NCBI GenBank assembly: GCA_016713325.1
Contig: JADJPJ010000052.1
Coordinates: forward strand, 1-52,695
DNA length: 52,695 nucleotides
Source of the DNA: Candidatus Flexifilum affinis
GTDB taxonomy: Bacteria; Chloroflexota; Anaerolineae; Aggregatilineales; Phototrophicaceae
Reading direction: 5' to 3'
The translations under genes and the position numbers were made by a program. Positions 8,322 through 46,128 of this stretch are shown one piece after another; position 1 is the stretch's first letter; each line of letters begins with the position of its first letter. The notes beneath the pieces were generated by a model that was given only the letters and a program-made list of their open reading frames with translations, did no database searches and was not told the DNA's origin.

Positions 8322-11300
8322 TCAATCCTCGCCGGCCTGGCCGAAGCTGGCCGCCAGCATGGAGAAGTCGCTGATGCTCACCACCCCATCCTTGTTGAAG
8401 TCGGCGCGGTCGTCGTAGCCCGTCTGACTCGAAGATAAGCCGAACGACGCCGCCAGGATCGAGAAGTCGCTGATGGTCACGCCGTTATTGTCGTTGGCAT
8501 CGCCTTCGCGCAGCGGCTGAACGGTGTAGACGCCTGTGCCGTCGAAATCCTCGACGGACAACACGGTTGACAGGGTATGGTCGCCCTTGAACCAGAAGCG
8601 GTAGCTGCCGGCGGTGAGGCCGGGCACGGTGAACCCGCCGCTGCTGTCGGTGGTGACGGTGGTGTCGAGCAGCGTGGTGGCGCCGTCGGGGGTCTGAATG
8701 CGGATGTGCAGGTCGTTGACCCAACTGGCGTGCGGCGCGGCGGGGCGACCCTGCCACATCGCCTGGCCGACAAAGCTGACGGTCGGCGGCGCGGTCAGGT
8801 AGCGGAGCGAAATGTCGTCGAGGCTCAGGTTGACCAGCCCCTGGGATTGCATGATGAAGGTGAGGTCGTGCAACTGACCATCGGCGTATTCGCTCATGTC
8901 GAGGGTGACTTGCGTATAGCCGCCGGTAAAACCGGTGAAAGGCTTGTTGACGCGGTAGATTTCCGCGCCGTCCACGAAGACGGCGAATACCGCACCCGAC
9001 GAGGTATCCGCCCCAACCCAGACCCAGAAACGGAGTTCGGCGGTTCCGGGTGGAATGCGAATGCTCTGCTCTAGAGCGCTCAACTCGTCGGCCTCTGTAC
9101 CACCCATCCAGGCCCACCAGACGCCAGATCGCGGGCCGGCACTGCCGCCGCCATTGCCGCAGGACGAGTCGCAGAGGGGCGAACCAAAGCGCCGAGAGTA
9201 TTCCAGCCAACTGGTTGAGACGTCCGGGAAGCGGGTCATGCTGCCGTCCTCGAAGCCGCCGAAGATGAGCATCTCGTCGCCTTCCTTGAGCAGCGGCAGC
9301 GCCTGCCAGCGGCTGACGAATACGTCTTCCATGTTGTTGGTATCGCCGGTCACCAGATTGGCGGCCCAGGAGCCGAACGCCGCGTACTGCCCATCGGCGG
9401 TGATATTGCCGAGTTCACTGTTGCCCCAGGTGTTCTGCGCGTTGAGATCGACCGTGATGGCCTCGGTATAGCCGGTCTGCATGTCGCGGACGAACACGTC
9501 GGTATCGTCGCCATCGCCGAGCGGGATCAGGTTGGTGGCATAAGAAATAAACACCAGATAGCGACCGTCAGGAGTGATGAGGAAATAGGGCGACTCCTTG
9601 TCGCCGATGAGTCCGCCGGAGGAGACAGAAGCCATAATCGTCTCCCCGGTAAGGCGGTCGTAGCGGAAGATGTCCGAAACTTCGTTGATGTCGCCTTCGA
9701 CCAGATCACTTGCCAGCGACTCGAAGAACACGTAGCGGCCATCGGCGGTGATCTGCGGACTTGCGCGCCCGCCGCTCATGGCATTGCCTCCAGACCCGGT
9801 AACGCTCACCGAGACCAGCGTGTACCCTTGTGTCTGGCGTTCCTCGAGGTAGAGGTCGCGCATGCCGCTGTTGTCTTGAGGCAGCAGGAAGGCGCCGGTG
9901 GCGAAGACGGCGAAGCGGAAATCCTCCGACACATCCATCCCGTAGACGTCGTACTGCGACGTGATGACGGGCATCGCGATCAGCATGAGCTGGCCGGTCG
10001 TCACTTCATAGGCGTACAGATCGAACCGGGAAACGCCTCCGGGAAGCAGGCCAGTGCCGCCGCCGAAGACGAGATACCTCCCGTCCGCCGTCCATTTAGC
10101 GTCCACCCCCCCACTGCCGTGGCGCGTCCCGTCGGGCGACTGCGAGACACGAATCGTCTGGCGCGTGTGCAGGTCATGAAGGAAGAGATCGAAATCAGCC
10201 ACCGTATCGTTCGGGACGAGGTTCGTCGCGTCGGTGACGAAGGCCACATAGCGTCCGTTGGGCGAGATCGACCCTCCGTAGGATCGACGGTTGGCCTGCA
10301 CGCCGGCGGTGGAGACCGAGACGAGCAGCGTCTGGCAGGTGTAGCGGTCGTGCACAAAGACGTCGGCTCGTTCGTTGGTGTCGCCCTGCACGAGATTGGT
10401 CGCGGACGAAGCGAAGCTCACCCAGCGGCCATCGGTCGACACGGTTCGGCCCCCTTCACTGCGCTCGTTCGCCTGCTGGCCATCTGACGCGACGCTGACG
10501 CGCTGAATGATCTGCGCAAGTGGGTCGAAGGCGCAGACGTTGGGCATGGGCGTGATGGTCGGAGACGGCGTGAAGGTGGGTGTCGACGTGGGCGTGTTCG
10601 ACGGGGTGGGCGTCATAGTCGGCGTAGAAGTGCTGGTCGGCGTTTCGGACGGGGTTGGTGTATGTGTCGGGGTATTCGTCGGCGGAGGCGGCAGCAGACT
10701 TGTCCGCACGACGTAGATACTGCCGGCATTGCCTGGATGTGGCTCTCCACTAATTAGGTTGGTGGCCCGGGTGAAGAAGGCGATCACCTGCCCATCGTCG
10801 GATAGCGACGGATAGTGCGAAATCGCATCGCCCTGCATCAGCGTGTCGCTGACCGACACGCGCTGGATGACCGAGTTGAGGTGATCGTGCAGGAAAACGT
10901 CGTGGACGCCATTCGAATCGCCCGGGACGAGCGACGGGATGCCTGATGCGAAGACGGTGAACCGCCCGTCGGCAGACACGGTAGGCGATCCCGAGTTCGT
11001 GTCGAAAAGCATCGGCGTGATGGCGGTGACGGAGTTGCCCGCCCGGTCGAAGCGGAAAATGTCGTCGGAATTGGCGGTGTCGCCGGAGACGATATCGGTG
11101 GCGTTAGAGCGAAACACAACCGTCCCGCCGTCGTCGCTGATGTCCAACTGCTCGACGCGGCCGGTGGACGCTTCGCCATCGGGCGTGCGCGACGCCAGCC
11201 AGACCTGGCCGGTGGCGAGGTCGCGGAGAAAGACATCTTCGTTGTTGGAACCGGGCGCCTCGGTGAAGCCCATATTGCTGGAGACCGAGACGTAGGCCAG

Positions 11301-12020
11301 GTAGCGCCCGTCCTCCGAGAGCGCCGGGTTGAAGCCACCGGCCGCCTGCCCGGTCACGGGCGAGATCGAGACAACCTCCGTGACGCCGGTCTCCCGCGCA
11401 TAACGGTAGATGTCCGGCGCGAGGTTGGAATCCAGGGCATCGAGGTTGTTGGCGTCGCTGGTGTAGACGACGAAGCGTCCGTCCCCGGAGATGTCGATGG
11501 CCGGGTCGCCGTTGAAGAAGTAGGGGCCGGCATTGGGTTCGACTCCGCCGTTGCCCACCAGCCGAGTCGTCGTGCCCGCCGTGCGATCGTGCAGGAAGAC
11601 GTCGGGTCGGCCATTGCTATCGCCGCTGACCAGGTCGCTGGCGGCGGAAACGAAGGCAACATAGCGTCCATCGTCGGAGATGACCGGACTGTAGGACTCG
11701 CCATCCGTGCTCAGGTTGGACGTATCGCGGGAGATCAGCTCCATCTGGCAGAGCTGCAAGTCGAATACGAAGACATCCCTGCCAGAAAAGTTCTCATCGG
11801 GCACGAGCGTGTTGTCGTAGGACTCGAAGGCGACATAGCGGCCATCGCCCGAAAGATCGGGGCCGAGCGAGTGCTGGCTTGTGGAGCGCGTCACCGCCGT
11901 CACCGGCGCGTTCGGGTCGCAGACCGCGAGGACCGGCCCGGTGGCGGTGATGAACAGCGAAAGGCCGAAGAGGCAGGCGGCCAGGGCGAACAGGAGGTGG
12001 GCAAGTCGATGAGCGCTCAT
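8322..12020 (-). CDS. Giant secreted TolB-propeller protein with dockerin-like C-terminus
   Basis: This 1232-residue secreted protein has a signal peptide at about 1-32. Two long arrays of TolB/PD40-type beta-propeller repeats follow, at about 33-440 and 495-880, with recurring phrases such as DGRYVAFVS and DVFVHDR. A Thr/Pro-rich linker of about 50 residues separates them. After these come a jellyroll-like domain (about 900-1075), a Cna-B/carboxypeptidase-regulatory-like beta domain (about 1080-1165), and two calcium-loop helices, GDANDNNGVTISDF and ADFNKDGVVSISDF, typical of dockerin type I. Dockerin-like ends are common in Chloroflexota without cellulosomes, so cell-wall or protein-protein attachment is only inferred. 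The ATG at 12020 follows GCGGGG. It is a single-gene unit, divergent from the chelatase gene. The substrate or ligand is unknown. Confidence 0.85.
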   Translation of the reverse strand: MSAHRLAHLLFALAACLFGLSLFITATGPVLAVCDPNAPVTAVTRSTSQHSLGPDLSGDGRYVAFESYDNTLVPDENFSGRDVFVFDLQLCQMELISRDTSNLSTDGESYSPVISDDGRYVAFVSAASDLVSGDSNGRPDVFLHDRTAGTTTRLVGNGGVEPNAGPYFFNGDPAIDISGDGRFVVYTSDANNLDALDSNLAPDIYRYARETGVTEVVSISPVTGQAAGGFNPALSEDGRYLAYVSVSSNMGFTEAPGSNNEDVFLRDLATGQVWLASRTPDGEASTGRVEQLDISDDGGTVVFRSNATDIVSGDTANSDDIFRFDRAGNSVTAITPMLFDTNSGSPTVSADGRFTVFASGIPSLVPGDSNGVHDVFLHDHLNSVIQRVSVSDTLMQGDAISHYPSLSDDGQVIAFFTRATNLISGEPHPGNAGSIYVVRTSLLPPPPTNTPTHTPTPSETPTSTSTPTMTPTPSNTPTSTPTFTPSPTITPMPNVCAFDPLAQIIQRVSVASDGQQANERSEGGRTVSTDGRWVSFASSATNLVQGDTNERADVFVHDRYTCQTLLVSVSTAGVQANRRSYGGSISPNGRYVAFVTDATNLVPNDTVADFDLFLHDLHTRQTIRVSQSPDGTRHGSGGVDAKWTADGRYLVFGGGTGLLPGGVSRFDLYAYEVTTGQLMLIAMPVITSQYDVYGMDVSEDFRFAVFATGAFLLPQDNSGMRDLYLEERQTQGYTLVSVSVTGSGGNAMSGGRASPQITADGRYVFFESLASDLVEGDINEVSDIFRYDRLTGETIMASVSSGGLIGDKESPYFLITPDGRYLVFISYATNLIPLGDGDDTDVFVRDMQTGYTEAITVDLNAQNTWGNSELGNITADGQYAAFGSWAANLVTGDTNNMEDVFVSRWQALPLLKEGDEMLIFGGFEDGSMTRFPDVSTSWLEYSRRFGSPLCDSSCGNGGGSAGPRSGVWWAWMGGTEADELSALEQSIRIPPGTAELRFWVWVGADTSSGAVFAVFVDGAEIYRVNKPFTGFTGGYTQVTLDMSEYADGQLHDLTFIMQSQGLVNLSLDDISLRYLTAPPTVSFVGQAMWQGRPAAPHASWVNDLHIRIQTPDGATTLLDTTVTTDSSGGFTVPGLTAGSYRFWFKGDHTLSTVLSVEDFDGTGVYTVQPLREGDANDNNGVTISDFSILAASFGLSSSQTGYDDRADFNKDGVVSISDFSMLAASFGQAGED

Positions 12021-12201: not shown

Positions 12202-13317
12202 ATGTCCAGACGTCCACCGGTCTATCCATTTACCGCCATCGTCGGCCAGGAGCGCATGAAGATTGCGCTGATCTTGAACGCTATCGATATGCGTATCGGC
12301 GGCGTTCTGATTCGTGGAGAGCGCGGCACCGGCAAGTCGACCGCCGCGCGTGCCCTGGCGGCCCTGCTTCCCGAGATCGACGTGATTGCCGAGTCGCCTT
12401 TCAGCGACGATCCAAAGCAACCGGAGACGTGGTCGGATGTGATCATGGACCGCAAAGAGCGGGGCGATGAGCTGCACACGACGCGCCGCCGTATTTCGTT
12501 CATCGATCTGCCGGTGAGCGCGACGGAAGATCGCGTGGTCGGCACGCTCGACATCGAACGGGCCATTCAGAAGGGCGAGAAGCGCTTCGATCCGGGCGTG
12601 CTGGCTGCGGCTAACCGCGGCATCCTGTACGTCGACGAGGTCAACCTGCTGGACGACCATGTCGTCGACCTGCTGCTGGACTCGGCGGCGATGGGCGTGA
12701 ATGTGGTCGAACGCGAGGGCATCAGCTTCTCGCACCCGGCGCGCTTTATTCTGATCGGCACGATGAACCCGGAAGAGGGCGATCTGCGCCCGCAGCTTTT
12801 GGACCGCTTCGCGCTCTCCGTCGAGGTGCGCGGCATCACCGACGCTCGCGAGCGTATGGACATCGTCGAGCGGCACATTGCCTATGAAGATGACCCCGAG
12901 ACGTTCCGTCAGGCCTGGGCGCCCGAAGAAGAGAAACTCACCAACGCGATTGCCTCCGCCCGCGAGATAATCGACGAGGTGGAGTACAGCCGGCGCGATC
13001 TGTACATGATCGCCACGCTGACCAGCGCGCTCAAGATCGACGGCCACCGCGCCGACCTGGTCATCCTCAAATCTGCCCGCGCGCACGCCGCCTTGCAGGG
13101 ACGCCGCAACATCGCTCCGGAAGACATCCGCCTGGCCTTCGAGCTGACCGTGCCGCACCGTCTGAAGCGAGGGCCGTTCGCCGATGCGCAGATGAGCATG
13201 GCGGAAGTCGACAAGCAGATGCAGCAGGTGCAGTCCGAATGGGGCGAGGGCGATGAGTCCGACGAGCGCGCCAGTGAGGGCGAACAGGAAGCAGTGAAAA
13301 AAAAAGCCCTTCCGTAG
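12202..13317 (+). CDS. chlI: Metal chelatase AAA+ subunit (ChlI/BchI-like), zero-frame product
   Basis: This 371-residue AAA+ ATPase is of the magnesium/cobalt chelatase I family, which forms hexameric rings that drive metal insertion into a tetrapyrrole. Walker A GERGTGKS is at 39-46, Walker B ILYVDEVN at about 142-149, and the sensor segment DRFALSVEVRG at about 202-212. A Ser/Glu/Asp-rich tail follows the lid domain. The ATG follows GAGAAGG. The reading frame ends four codons after a run of nine A (13297-13305), and the VWA half of ChlD continues in the -1 frame with no canonical start codon of its own. This protein is therefore probably one of two products of a single chlD-type gene: this short ChlI-like form and a 689-residue ChlD-like fusion. 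No large subunit (ChlH or CobN) is in the window, so the tetrapyrrole and metal are undecided. Confidence 0.85.
   Translation: MSRRPPVYPFTAIVGQERMKIALILNAIDMRIGGVLIRGERGTGKSTAARALAALLPEIDVIAESPFSDDPKQPETWSDVIMDRKERGDELHTTRRRISFIDLPVSATEDRVVGTLDIERAIQKGEKRFDPGVLAAANRGILYVDEVNLLDDHVVDLLLDSAAMGVNVVEREGISFSHPARFILIGTMNPEEGDLRPQLLDRFALSVEVRGITDARERMDIVERHIAYEDDPETFRQAWAPEEEKLTNAIASAREIIDEVEYSRRDLYMIATLTSALKIDGHRADLVILKSARAHAALQGRRNIAPEDIRLAFELTVPHRLKRGPFADAQMSMAEVDKQMQQVQSEWGEGDESDERASEGEQEAVKKKALP
13297..13305 (+). promoter_or_regulatory. A9 slippery site for -1 frameshifting in chlD
   Basis: Nine consecutive A residues are read as three Lys codons in the zero frame. A purine-rich AGGAAG (13286-13291) that could pair with 16S rRNA lies five bases upstream, and the zero-frame stop TAG is at 13315-13317. 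A -1 slip puts ribosomes into the open frame that encodes the VWA half. Transcript slippage adding one A would give the same product, and so would an assembly error of one A. Confidence 0.6.
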
Positions 13318-14270
13318 CCACGATTAGCGACGACAATACGCCGGATCTCGGCCAGACCGATCCCTCCCCCCAGAATGTCTTCGACAACCGGGATGCCTAC
13401 TGGTGGGAGGGCGGCAAGAAGGTCGAGACCGGCAGGGAATTTATCCCCCGCAAGCTGCAAACCACTCTGGACCAGATGACCCGCCGTCAGGCGGGACGAC
13501 GCAGTCGCACCCACACCGATCGCAAGCGCGGCCGCTACATCAAGGCGCGCCCTGTCGGCGGGGAGCGGCCCAGCGATATTGCCTTCGACGCGACCCTGCG
13601 CGCCGCCGCGCCCTACCAGCGCGCCCGCGAGGAGATCAAGCGCGTTTCTGGAATGGCCTACGCCATCCAGCGGCGCGACTTGCAGCGCAAGGTCCGCGTG
13701 CGCCGCACCGCCAACCTGATCCTGTTCGTGGTCGATGCCTCATGGAGCATGGCCGTCAGCGAGCGCATGAGCGCCACCAAGGGCGCGATCATGTCGCTGC
13801 TCACGGACGCCTACCAGCGCCGCGACCGCGTCGGGCTGGTCGTCTTCCAGAAGGACCGCGCCCAGATGGTGCTGCCGCCGACCAATTCGGTGACGCTGGC
13901 CAAGCAGGCGCTGACGGTGATCCCGGTCGGCGGCAAGACGCCGCTGTCCGCCGGGCTGATGCTGTCGTTGGAGTGCGTGCTGCGCGAGAAGGCGGCGCAT
14001 CCGGACGTCATCCCGCTGGTCCTGATCCTGACCGATGGCGCGGGCAACGTGTCGTTGGGCGAGATGCCACCCCAGGAAGAGGCGCACAAGATCGCCGATC
14101 AGTTCCGTTATGAGCACATCAAAACGGTGGTGATCAACATGGAGCATCAGGCCTTCGACCAGGGGCTGGCGCAGAAGCTGGCCGACCGGCTGGGCGGACC
14201 ATGCTACTCGATCGGTCAGATGAAGGCTGAGGCGCTGCTCGACACGGTGCGCAGCGAAATGACGAAATAG
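13305..14270 (+). CDS. chlD: ChlD/BchD-like VWA half, reached by -1 frameshift
   Basis: This is the -1-frame continuation of the chelatase gene, 321 codons. It begins with an acidic/Pro-rich segment, then the conserved ChlD basic region (RQAGRRSRTHTDRKRGRY), then a VWA domain with the metal-ion-dependent adhesion motif DASWSM (near 13734-13751) and the later TDGAGN. In ChlD, this domain docks the AAA+ ring on the large chelatase subunit. The frame is open from 13278, but there is no ATG, GTG or TTG until 13476, which lies inside the conserved basic region, so independent initiation would remove part of it. Fusion through the A9 site gives 689 residues, a normal ChlD length. A separate short protein from 13476 is the alternative. 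A strong terminator follows. Confidence 0.8.
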   Translation, partial: SPSVATISDDNTPDLGQTDPSPQNVFDNRDAYWWEGGKKVETGREFIPRKLQTTLDQMTRRQAGRRSRTHTDRKRGRYIKARPVGGERPSDIAFDATLRAAAPYQRAREEIKRVSGMAYAIQRRDLQRKVRVRRTANLILFVVDASWSMAVSERMSATKGAIMSLLTDAYQRRDRVGLVVFQKDRAQMVLPPTNSVTLAKQALTVIPVGGKTPLSAGLMLSLECVLREKAAHPDVIPLVLILTDGAGNVSLGEMPPQEEAHKIADQFRYEHIKTVVINMEHQAFDQGLAQKLADRLGGPCYSIGQMKAEALLDTVRSEMTK

Positions 14271-14299: not shown

Positions 14300-14336
14300 A
14301 GCGGCCCGGCTGCCCTGCGCGGTCGGGCCGCTTTTT
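14300..14336 (+). terminator. Rho-independent terminator after chlD
   Basis: A 9-bp stem, AGCGGCCCG (14300-14308) with CGGGCCGCT (14324-14332), is followed by a run of T ending at 14336. It overlaps the last codon of the convergent VIT gene, so the two units share this site. Confidence 0.85.
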
Positions 14337-15033
14337 ATGCCACGGTGGTGCCGAAGAGCGAACCGACGACGGCCGTTGCGGCCATGGCCAGCGCGCCCCA
14401 GAAGGTGATGCGGAGGCTCGCCTTGAGGGTGGACGATCCGCCAATGCGCGCCGCCAAATAGCCCAACAGCGCCAGGAAGATTAGCGACGTAGCCACCACC
14501 GCCGGGACGATCGCGCCATCTGGCGCCAGAAAGACCGTCAGCAGAGGCATGGTCGCGCCGACCGCGAAGGAGCCGGCCGAAGCCAGCGCCGCCTGCACGG
14601 GTCGGGCTGTCATCACCTCGGAGATGCCGAGCTCGTCGCGAGCATGGGCTTCCAGTGCGTTGTGGGCCGTCAACTGCTGGGCGACCTGCTTTGCCAGGGC
14701 CGGCTCCAACCCGCGCGACACGTAGATGGCGGTCAGTTCTTCCAGTTCATAGGGGCCGTCCGTCGCCAGCTCCCGCCGTTCCCGCGACAGATCGGCCTGC
14801 TCAGTGTCCGACTGTGAACTGACCGAGACGTACTCGCCAGCGGCCATGGACATGGCGCCGGCCACCAGACCGGCCACGCCGGCGATCAACACGTCGCCTC
14901 GAACCGCCGAGGCCGCCGCCACGCCGACGACCAGACTCGCGGTGGAGACAATTCCGTCATTCGCGCCCAAGACGGCGGCGCGGAGCCAACCAATACGGCC
15001 TGTGCGATGCTGTTCTCGATGGTTTACGGACAT
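14335..15033 (-). CDS. VIT family transporter (Fe/Mn)
   Basis: This protein of about 232 residues is of the VIT1/CCC1 family, membrane carriers that move ferrous iron or manganese, in bacteria usually out of the cytoplasm. The family signature GWLRAAVLGANDGIVSTASL is near the N-terminus, a second conserved helix carries AGAMSMAAGEYVSVSSQ, and a charged cytosolic segment of about 85 residues rich in Glu precedes the last three membrane helices. Five membrane segments are predicted in all, as in the family. The start at 15033 follows GGGGATTG; ATGs at 15045 and 15063 would add 4 or 10 residues. It converges on the chelatase gene. A small membrane protein gene lies just upstream. A role in metal balance is likely from the family; which metal is unknown. 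Confidence 0.88.
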   Translation of the reverse strand: MSVNHREQHRTGRIGWLRAAVLGANDGIVSTASLVVGVAAASAVRGDVLIAGVAGLVAGAMSMAAGEYVSVSSQSDTEQADLSRERRELATDGPYELEELTAIYVSRGLEPALAKQVAQQLTAHNALEAHARDELGISEVMTARPVQAALASAGSFAVGATMPLLTVFLAPDGAIVPAVVATSLIFLALLGYLAARIGGSSTLKASLRITFWGALAMAATAVVGSLFGTTVA

Positions 15034-15100
15034 TTCAATCCCCATCTGGCGGTTCCCATCCATGATTGCATGATAAGCGGTGCGGGGATCAGATTGAAGG

Positions 15101-20391: not shown

Positions 20392-22284
20392 CTACGACTC
20401 GATGGAGAAGGCCAGGAGGTAGGTGACCAGCGCGTCGATGTCTTCCGGCGGGAGGACGTAGATCAACTGGTGCGCGCCGGCCAGCTCGAAGACCTGCCGC
20501 AGCGTCGTCGCCGACCCATCATGGTAGTAGGGGGCGCTCAACCAGAGCCAGCGCAGCGACGGCGTGTCGAACAGCGCGCCGGTGCCGACATCGTGCCCTT
20601 GAAGATCAGTGCCGGCGGGGCCGACATGACAGGAGGCGCAGTCCAATTCGGCAAAGACCTCGCGGCCGCGGGCGAATGCTTCCTGTGGCGCTGCCGGAGA
20701 CGCCGAAGGGGGCTGCAAACTGCGCAGGTAGTTGGTCAGCAGATCGAGATCGGGCGACTGCCCGGCCATTGGCTGACCCAGCAGTTCCGGAAGCGCGAGG
20801 GTTTCGGCCAGGCCCGCGCCGGCTTGCAGCCAGCGAATCTTGTGCTCGACATCGGCCAGTTCATCCCACGATCCCGTCCAGGTGTACGGCACCGTCTCGG
20901 GAAGCTGGTAGAGCAGCGGAGTGTTGCGCGGTCCGCCGGGGAAGCCCATCCAGACATTGCCGTCGGACATGCCGTCGAAGTGGCAGGTGGCACAGCTCAG
21001 CCAGCCGTCGGCGGCCAGGCGGGGGTCGCCTGCGCTGTGGAACAACTGCGCGCCGAGGAGGACCTCCAGCGACTGCTGCAAGTCGATGATCGGCAGGACC
21101 TGAGTGGGCTGGAAAGAGCGCGTGTCGACCGTGGTGACGGTGCCATCCAGCGCGTTGTGGACGTAGAGCAGCGTGTTGTCGCGGCTGAGCAGCAGGCCGC
21201 GGGGGTTGGCACCCACCTGAACATGCGCGCGCGCCTGGCCGGTGTTCAGGTCGATGACGGTGACACTGTCGCTGCCGGCGTTGGCGACGTACAACCGGCG
21301 GCCGAAGCGGTCCAGGGCCGTCGCAAAGGGCATATTCACCGGTTGGTCGGCGGTATCAAGGGCGATGCGCGAGCGCCGGCTGAGGGTCAGATCGGACAGC
21401 GTGACGACGTTGACGATCGGCAGCGCGGTGGTGTCGAAGGTGAGCGACGGATTGCCGTCATTCAGGCGCGTCTGCGGCAGGTAGGCGATGCCGCGGGTGA
21501 TATCGATCTCGATGGACTGGAAGAGGGCCGTGCCGGCGCCGGTGGAGACGGTCTCGAAGGTGCGAGCGCGCGGCAGATAGACCAGGCTGACGTCGCCGCT
21601 CCAGAAGTGGGTGACGTAGAGGAAGTCGCCCCACAGCGCCAGACCGGCCGGCGCGTCCGGCACGTCGATCAGGGTGCGCACGGCGCCGGCCACCAGATCG
21701 ACGACCGCGATCTGGTCGCTGCCCATAAGCGACACATAGGCGATTTCATTCGACGCGGCGACCACTCCATAGGCCCAGGCGCCGCCCAGCGGGATGGTGA
21801 CGACGACGACGTGCTGGTTGATGTCGATGACCGACAGGCTGCTGTCAAGCCGGTTGGTGATGAGGGCGCGGGTATTGTCCGGGGTGATGGCCGCGCCGCG
21901 CGGATCGCGCCCGACGGGAATTTCGGCGACGACCTGATCGAAGGCGGGAATGAAGATGGTCGCCGAATTGTTGATCATGTTCGCCGAGACGAACGTCCGC
22001 CCGTCGCCGGCCATGGCGATGGTGCTGCTGCCGGACACCCGATTGATGCGCGAATCCGGCAGCGCGTACAGGGGCAGCGGCGTCGGCGTGGCAGCGGTCT
22101 GTGCCTGCGTTGCCGTCGGCGCCGGGATGGCGGCCAGCATCAGCCCGAACAGCATGACGAGCAGCCCGATCAACACGCCGGCGCGGGGCATGCGTCTCGA
22201 CGTTGAAGGTCGGGACGACGCGGGTGCCTGCTCCGCCGGTGGGCGCTCCGCGGGGTGTCTCGATGCTGAAGGTCGGGTGGTCAT
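20392..22284 (-). CDS. YVTN-type beta-propeller fused to cytochrome c domains
   Basis: This 630-residue exported protein has a cytosolic N-terminus rich in Arg, Pro and Ser followed by a signal-anchor-like helix (VLIGLLVMLFGLMLAAI). A YVTN/NHL-type beta-propeller spans about residues 70-400 (repeats such as NNSATIFIPAFDQVVAEIPV and VTVIDLNTGQARAHVQVGA). The last third has two haem c motifs, CATCH near residue 430 and CASCH near 548, in a layout like the di-haem peroxidase/MauG-type proteins often found with YVTN propellers. Haem is attached outside the membrane, so an electron-transfer or peroxidase role at the cell surface is likely. Its ATG overlaps the stop of the upstream 1239-residue gene by four bases, so the two are coupled. 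The exact reaction is unknown. Confidence 0.85.
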   Translation of the reverse strand: MTTRPSASRHPAERPPAEQAPASSRPSTSRRMPRAGVLIGLLVMLFGLMLAAIPAPTATQAQTAATPTPLPLYALPDSRINRVSGSSTIAMAGDGRTFVSANMINNSATIFIPAFDQVVAEIPVGRDPRGAAITPDNTRALITNRLDSSLSVIDINQHVVVVTIPLGGAWAYGVVAASNEIAYVSLMGSDQIAVVDLVAGAVRTLIDVPDAPAGLALWGDFLYVTHFWSGDVSLVYLPRARTFETVSTGAGTALFQSIEIDITRGIAYLPQTRLNDGNPSLTFDTTALPIVNVVTLSDLTLSRRSRIALDTADQPVNMPFATALDRFGRRLYVANAGSDSVTVIDLNTGQARAHVQVGANPRGLLLSRDNTLLYVHNALDGTVTTVDTRSFQPTQVLPIIDLQQSLEVLLGAQLFHSAGDPRLAADGWLSCATCHFDGMSDGNVWMGFPGGPRNTPLLYQLPETVPYTWTGSWDELADVEHKIRWLQAGAGLAETLALPELLGQPMAGQSPDLDLLTNYLRSLQPPSASPAAPQEAFARGREVFAELDCASCHVGPAGTDLQGHDVGTGALFDTPSLRWLWLSAPYYHDGSATTLRQVFELAGAHQLIYVLPPEDIDALVTYLLAFSIES

Positions 22285-46004: not shown

Positions 46005-46128
46005 GCAGGAATGCAGCGCCTGCCCTTGATTCCAAATACCCCCCCTCACGCGGCCGGGTTAGCTCCGAAACCTCACTCCGGGTTATACTGCGCCGCAGTA
46101 CTCTCCGATCCGTGTTTCGTGGAACGCC

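Follow-up and report, generated by a model that had tools for sequence, protein, structure and literature searches.

The DNA stretch analyzed in this work (52,695 bases, GC 0.626; hereafter, the window) harbors a frameshifted chlD gene of the TIGR02442 type, from a bacterium of the Chloroflexota close to Anaerolineae. The strong conservation of the run of nine A residues (A9) at the junction between its two frames, and of the layout around it, makes us confident that, as the sequence-only reading had proposed, this one gene would give two nested products via slippage at the run, either ribosomal or transcriptional. The predicted products are a 371-aa ChlI-like protein and a 689-aa ChlD-like protein with a VWA domain, the AAA+ domain being common to both. 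In the class of sites with nine or ten A residues (A9-10), which includes the window, we moderately favor RNA polymerase as the enzyme that would do most of the slipping; the ribosome is a strong competitor in this role and may also share it.

Organization of the Chelatase Gene

The features of the gene and of its surroundings are reported in Table 1. The coordinates given previously for the A9 run ending the ChlI-like frame and for the ChlD/VWA part in the -1 frame were re-read in the sequence and are all correct. The frame-0 ORF contains GERGTGKST and GILYVDE, which we take to be the Walker A and B motifs, and the DASWS of the VWA domain is presumably a MIDAS-type motif. The TIGR02442 model (641 positions) matches both halves of the gene, at positions 1-354 with frame 0 and at positions 384-640 with the -1 frame; the ChlI-like and VWA frames are, in other words, one TIGR02442 gene split over different frames, which is what characterizes a frameshifted chlD (fs-chlD). 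Joining them at the A9 run reproduces the length of 689 residues (368 + 321) previously calculated for the fusion. The ORF reading also bore out the absence of an early start codon in the -1 frame, whose first ATG, GTG, or TTG is the ATG at 13476, 57 codons in. The two frames that would not give the long product are closed three and seven codons after the A9 run.

Table 1. Features of the chlD locus and of neighboring genes in the window.
Feature	Position	Strand	Remarks
Frame-0 ORF, ChlI-like AAA+ small subunit	12202..13317	+	371 aa, ends KKKALP, then stop
TIGR02030 (BchI-ChlI) match	12223..13230	+	profile match, model positions 1-335 of 337
AGGAAG, Shine-Dalgarno-like, weak and unconserved	13286..13291	+	five bases 5' of A9
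A9 slippage site (putative)	13297..13305	+	frame-0 codons AAA AAA AAA, phase 0
Frame-0 stop TAG	13315..13317	+	fourth codon past A9; GCC CTT CCG TAG
Third (+1) frame stop TAG	13325..13327	+	7 codons from A9
-1 frame: acidic linker, basic region, and VWA domain of the predicted ChlD-like long product	13305..14270	+	
VWA domain, PF00092 (PF13519 = first part)	13719..14168	+	contains DASWS
VIT1 family (PF01988) protein	14335-15063	-	adjoins the chelatase gene, convergent
1232-aa protein, PD40 propeller repeats and C-terminal dockerin type I domain	8322-12020	-	
630-aa protein, lactonase/YncE-like propeller joined to a MauG-like cytochrome c part	20392-22284	-	

No neighbor is conserved across the relatives: the largest neighbor family (its representative has S1 domains) occurs at 23/81 loci, the window not being among them, and no VIT1-type gene was found near the other chlD loci.

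Rarity and Conservation of the A Run

The relatives were collected by scanning species genomes with the short product and keeping the best 80 of the 590 loci encoding a relative; they are labelled Chloroflexota or groups within this phylum, the sole exception being L003 (Bacteroidetes). Further loci were added from part of the matches in a phylum sample (201 genomes) and in a class sample (298 genomes, 254 of which match the ChlI query at E 1e-110). The resulting 285 sequences correspond to 262 unique loci with adjacent ChlI and ChlD parts, including the window. A hairpin was called downstream of the run when z was below -1.5, and a frame was counted as closed if a stop occurred within ten codons of the run.

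Apart from the A9 run, no stretch of A or T in the window reaches seven bases; 0.011 A runs of nine or more are predicted from the composition of the window. In the loci of the 80 relatives (872,316 bases), 71 out of 74 A/T runs of at least nine bases sit at the chlD junction, and six whole related genomes contain from two to five distinct A9/T9 runs apiece, one of which is at chlD in 6/6. The alignment of relatives, which the sequence-only reading had suggested as a check, revealed an A7-A10 run at the same position in all of the best 80 of 590 loci. A -1 layout with at least seven consecutive A residues at the junction is shared by 170/262 unique loci, the run being present in all but one of the 171 -1 loci; the -1 relation is also the commonest one in run-bearing loci (170/212).

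The same reading had warned that several other genes in the window have homopolymer frame breaks. As far as runs of at least seven bases are concerned, this caution is narrowed to two C7 runs, located at positions 10106-10112 and 46039-46045, the first of which falls inside the uninterrupted 1232-aa ORF and breaks no frame.

These data bear on three alternative explanations. A single homopolymer base does set the frame, as an assembly error (or the loss of one base from the gene) would require, but the run in 80/80 relatives and the -1 layout in 170/262 loci lead us to exclude a one-base assembly error as the general cause; moreover, the carriers include contigs of several million bases (e.g., G027, G134, and G188), and we regard this explanation as extremely improbable. 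The same can be said of phase variation, that is, changes in the DNA run length by which cells switch between the short and the long protein: L014 and L178 (91.8% identity) do differ by one A and have reversed polarity, but 163 loci have a run of either nine or ten A residues, and both other frames soon meet a stop, whichever the polarity. Lastly, the downstream frame might be translated separately, through a restart or an internal start, giving ChlI and a free VWA protein without any fusion. In 48/170 -1 loci, the ChlD frame has an ATG, GTG, or TTG no more than 45 bases from the ChlI stop; however, the other 122 have no such start, that of the window lies far inside the -1 frame, and the A run would be left unexplained, all of which makes a separate translation very unlikely.

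Two Classes of Sites

The run comprises seven or eight A residues (A7-8) in 49 of the 262 loci and nine or ten in 163 (window included), while it is missing in 50, 47 of which have a continuous ChlD. All the A7-8 runs (49/49) share one codon phase, no run of seven or eight A residues being found in phases 1 or 2 among the 262 loci; the A9-10 runs are evenly distributed over the three phases (59/50/54, p 0.69). A hairpin was called in 37/49 A7-8 loci versus 18/163 A9-10 loci. In the -1 layout, the mean z is -2.81 for A7-8 and -0.32 for A9-10 (130 loci), and the cluster means of the two classes (clusters at 85% identity) differ with p 4e-6. The window gave no hairpin signal for a downstream stimulatory structure (z -0.56). 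In six loci (L053, L055, L056, L063, L065, and L066), a hairpin of 7 to 9 pairs is located right after an A8 run; a compensatory change occurs in L065, whose stem reads GCTGATCG/CGATCAGC versus GCTGACCG/CGGTCAGC in the A8 group.

Concerning the AGGAAG upstream of the A9 run, its presence is confirmed; as a Shine-Dalgarno (SD) element, it pairs weakly with the anti-SD (-4.3 kcal/mol) and is not conserved, the values in eight near relatives ranging from +0.3 to -7.1. Considering the whole class, an SD-like pairing of -6 kcal/mol or lower was found upstream of 25% of A9-10 runs against a background of 13%, and of 41% of the A9-10 runs with continuous ChlD against 24%. Strong SD-like sites are confined to the A7 loci with continuous ChlD (mean -10.1 kcal/mol, nine loci). 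One A7 clade of eight loci with continuous ChlD exhibits a hairpin below -1.5 in 5/8 cases, a -1 stop at nine codons in 8/8, and a +1 frame that stays open over 49 codons in 7/8.

The third frame is never read after a -1 ribosomal shift, whereas RNA polymerase slippage yields all three frames. In the -1 layout, it is closed within ten codons in 120/130 A9-10 loci (the background being 0.28 in the same genes, and 0.35 for the linker alone with a limit of eleven codons) and in 20/40 A7-8 loci (background 0.19). When clusters are counted, the figures become 59/66 for A9-10 versus 6/13 for A7-8 (Fisher p 0.0012); the latter is also above its own background (p 0.024), and this enrichment in stops weakens a clean split between the two classes.

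Polarity of the Gene and Continuous chlD

In 32 loci (16 clusters), an A9-10 run coexists with a ChlD that is continuous in frame 0. Their appearance is not that of plain fusions: stops within ten codons of the run close the -1 frame in 32/32 and the +1 frame in 25/32, the corresponding values for the run-less continuous genes being 6/47 and 5/47. A FastTree phylogeny built on 128 representatives shows 13 changes of run class, 16 of polarity (run-bearing rows), and 18 of phase (A9-10 rows). In near pairs, among them the already mentioned L014/L178, L080/L087, and L115/L225, polarity flips and the run persists, as expected if the run length alone matters. Tree-based independent pairs fit in direction and are not significant, being seven only, and mixed polarity was found in only 3/94 clusters. 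Some A10 cases may be assembly errors. L045 has an A10 run and yet its ChlD lies in the +1 frame, its near relative L038 (82.8% identity) having the -1 layout with A10; L045 represents either a true third polarity or a MAG error. In L135 and L146, ChlD is in the +1 frame relative to ChlI, and no A run of seven or more is present.

As to the copy number of chlI, a separate gene has been reported in some Anaerolineaceae in the available part of Kuznetsov et al. 2022 (PMC9227772), and in our phylum sample, at least 21 genomes have a continuous ChlD with a separate ChlI match no more than 3.3 kb away. The idea that run-less continuous genes are always accompanied by a separate chlI was nevertheless rejected, since thirteen genomes with a continuous, run-less ChlD (L109, L150-L152, L155-L158, L162-L165, and L168) lack a second ChlI-like match at E 1e-30. 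The converse idea, i.e., that run-bearing genomes hold a single ChlI, was weakened by 9/35 genomes with a distant second ChlI (260-288 bits).

Possible Mechanisms of Slippage

The existence of two classes of sites, the closed third frames, and the polarity flips with the run kept lead us to favor, with some reserve, RNA polymerase slippage in the A9-10 class. According to this model, the short protein would be read from transcripts with the templated nine A's and the long one from transcripts that have gained one A or lost two, and the remaining transcripts would end early in the third frame. Some points do not fit it easily. Any A9 contains A_AAA_AAA, so that ribosomal slipping is possible in every phase; the third frames of A7-8 loci are also closed above background; SD-like pairing is about twice the background upstream of A9-10 runs, as a ribosomal route would favor; the closed third frames could instead guard against mutations in run length; and the seven independent pairs do not reach significance.

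The serious competitor is a programmed -1 ribosomal frameshifting on A_AAA_AAA, with the 32 continuous genes shifting in the opposite sense, like E. coli dnaX. The prevalence of the -1 relation among run-bearing loci and the SD-like pairing agree with it, and the A7-8 loci fit it through their hairpin and the phase of the heptamer, to which one clade adds a strong SD. In the accessible portion of PMC3711429, E. coli cassettes with 11, 9, and 7 A's gave 63, 40, and 10%, respectively, values which, as presented there, do not separate transcription from translation. On the other hand, the A9-10 class as a whole, like the window, gives no hairpin signal, A7 or A8 runs never occur in phases 1 or 2, where the heptamer would fit, and a frame that the ribosome would never read is closed in 120/130 loci. 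For the A9-10 class, we thus consider ribosomal frameshifting, which the sequence-only reading had put forward, possible in view of the heptamer within A9 and rather less probable than not; phase, hairpin, and third frame do not make it the best fit.

We give even chances to a more comprehensive scenario for the chlD of Chloroflexota, in which an RNA polymerase slippage free of phase and polarity (A9-10) and a -1 ribosomal shift (A_AAA_AAA plus hairpin) would interchange, selection would keep the run length and the near stops while the frame relation is often flipped, some continuous chlD genes would make a hidden short subunit, and the pair of most carriers would lack CobN/ChlH.

The Role of the Chelatase Pair

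It had been supposed that the gene probably works with CobN for cobalamin. This idea is not supported by the genomes of the relatives, where (the counts refer to them and not to the window's own genome) a CobN/ChlH match (PF02514) occurs in 2/72 cases (0/22 plus 2/50, with 8 of the 80 not covered) and CbiC (CbiC/CobH, corrin ring synthesis) in 0/34. In 14 named genomes used as controls, PF02514 was found in 5/14 and CbiC in 7/14; PF02514 is present in 36/298 genomes of the class sample (35 over cut-off) and in 33/201 of the phylum sample. Single absences mean little because many genomes are MAGs of completeness not given; the pattern is consistent nonetheless. Hence, we think it quite likely that the chelatase pair has no CobN partner, and the gene in this Chloroflexota lineage is probably not part of a cobaltochelatase. 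The pair is probably an AAA+/VWA machine that operates with neither CobN nor ChlH, and on the basis of the analogy with other AAA+/VWA pairs, we expect an ATP-driven remodelling or metal-insertion machine. The same absence of CobN/ChlH has been described in a few Chloroflexi, with the function called unexplored, in the text available of Kuznetsov et al. 2022 (PMC9227772).

Compared with the aerobic cobaltochelatase (CobNST/ChlIDH), the organization into an AAA+ small subunit and an AAA+/VWA medium subunit is the same, and the TIGR02442 model is itself named putative cobaltochelatase; the difference lies in the lack of a CobN/ChlH match in 70/72 genomes of the relatives and of CbiC in 34/34. 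If this reading is correct, it points to a widespread ChlI/ChlD machine without the large chelatase subunit.

Comparison with Known Frameshifted Genes

Frameshifted chlD and its presence in Chloroflexota are already known. Herpetosiphon is a member of the Chloroflexota. It is named among the carriers of frameshifted chlD in the part consulted of Antonov et al. 2013 (PMC3711429), and fs-chlD is reported in Anaerolinea, Ornatilinea, Longilinea, Levilinea, and Brevefilum in that of Kuznetsov et al. 2022 (PMC9227772), so that the suggestion that it may have gone unnoticed in this lineage cannot be maintained. Insofar as these two papers were available, they term the shift programmed ribosomal or translational frameshifting, and the second one describes the signals as usually, though not necessarily, consisting of an AT-rich slippery site and a downstream RNA structure. 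The genes analyzed here share with fs-chlD the gene family, the A run between the ChlI and VWA parts, the -1 relation, and the near stop, Chloroflexota included; they differ in that the A9-10 class is without a structure signal and in that 32 relatives retain the run while their polarity is reversed. In the literature searched (Antonov 2020 lay outside it), we found neither a proposal of transcriptional slippage for chlD nor the two classes of sites, the closed third frame, and the run-keeping genes of reversed polarity.

Two dnaX systems are of help in interpreting this scenario. The signal of E. coli dnaX is made up of a slippery heptamer, an SD, and a hairpin, with the long product in frame 0. 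Its mechanism is a -1 ribosomal frameshifting, according to the available text of PMC5009743. The A7-8 relatives resemble it in their exact heptamer phase and hairpin, and the A7 clade of eight also in its strong SD and in the long product in frame 0; the window differs, being without a strong SD and without a hairpin signal. In Thermus thermophilus, dnaX undergoes transcriptional slippage on an A9, as stated in the portions available of PMC5009743 and PMC1088944. With this system, the window shares the A9, the stops that soon close both other frames, one gene for two products, short and long (predicted in the window), and no need for a stimulator; a run of about nine A or T residues, by which such a site is recognized together with near stops, is found in the window (A9) as in the whole class (9-10 in 163 loci). 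The differences are that the gene is another one, that slippage is known there and here predicted from the sequence, and that frame 0 encodes the long product in Thermus, like in the 32 relatives, and the short one in the window. On the whole, what we observe looks as if a single gene family combined a slippage of the Thermus dnaX type with a frameshifting of the E. coli dnaX type. If this is true, ordinary-looking continuous chlD fusions would also make a hidden short subunit, both routes would be found inside one phylum, with about two hundred natural variants to compare, and chlD would join dnaX in that different lineages reach the same outcome, some at transcription and others at translation.
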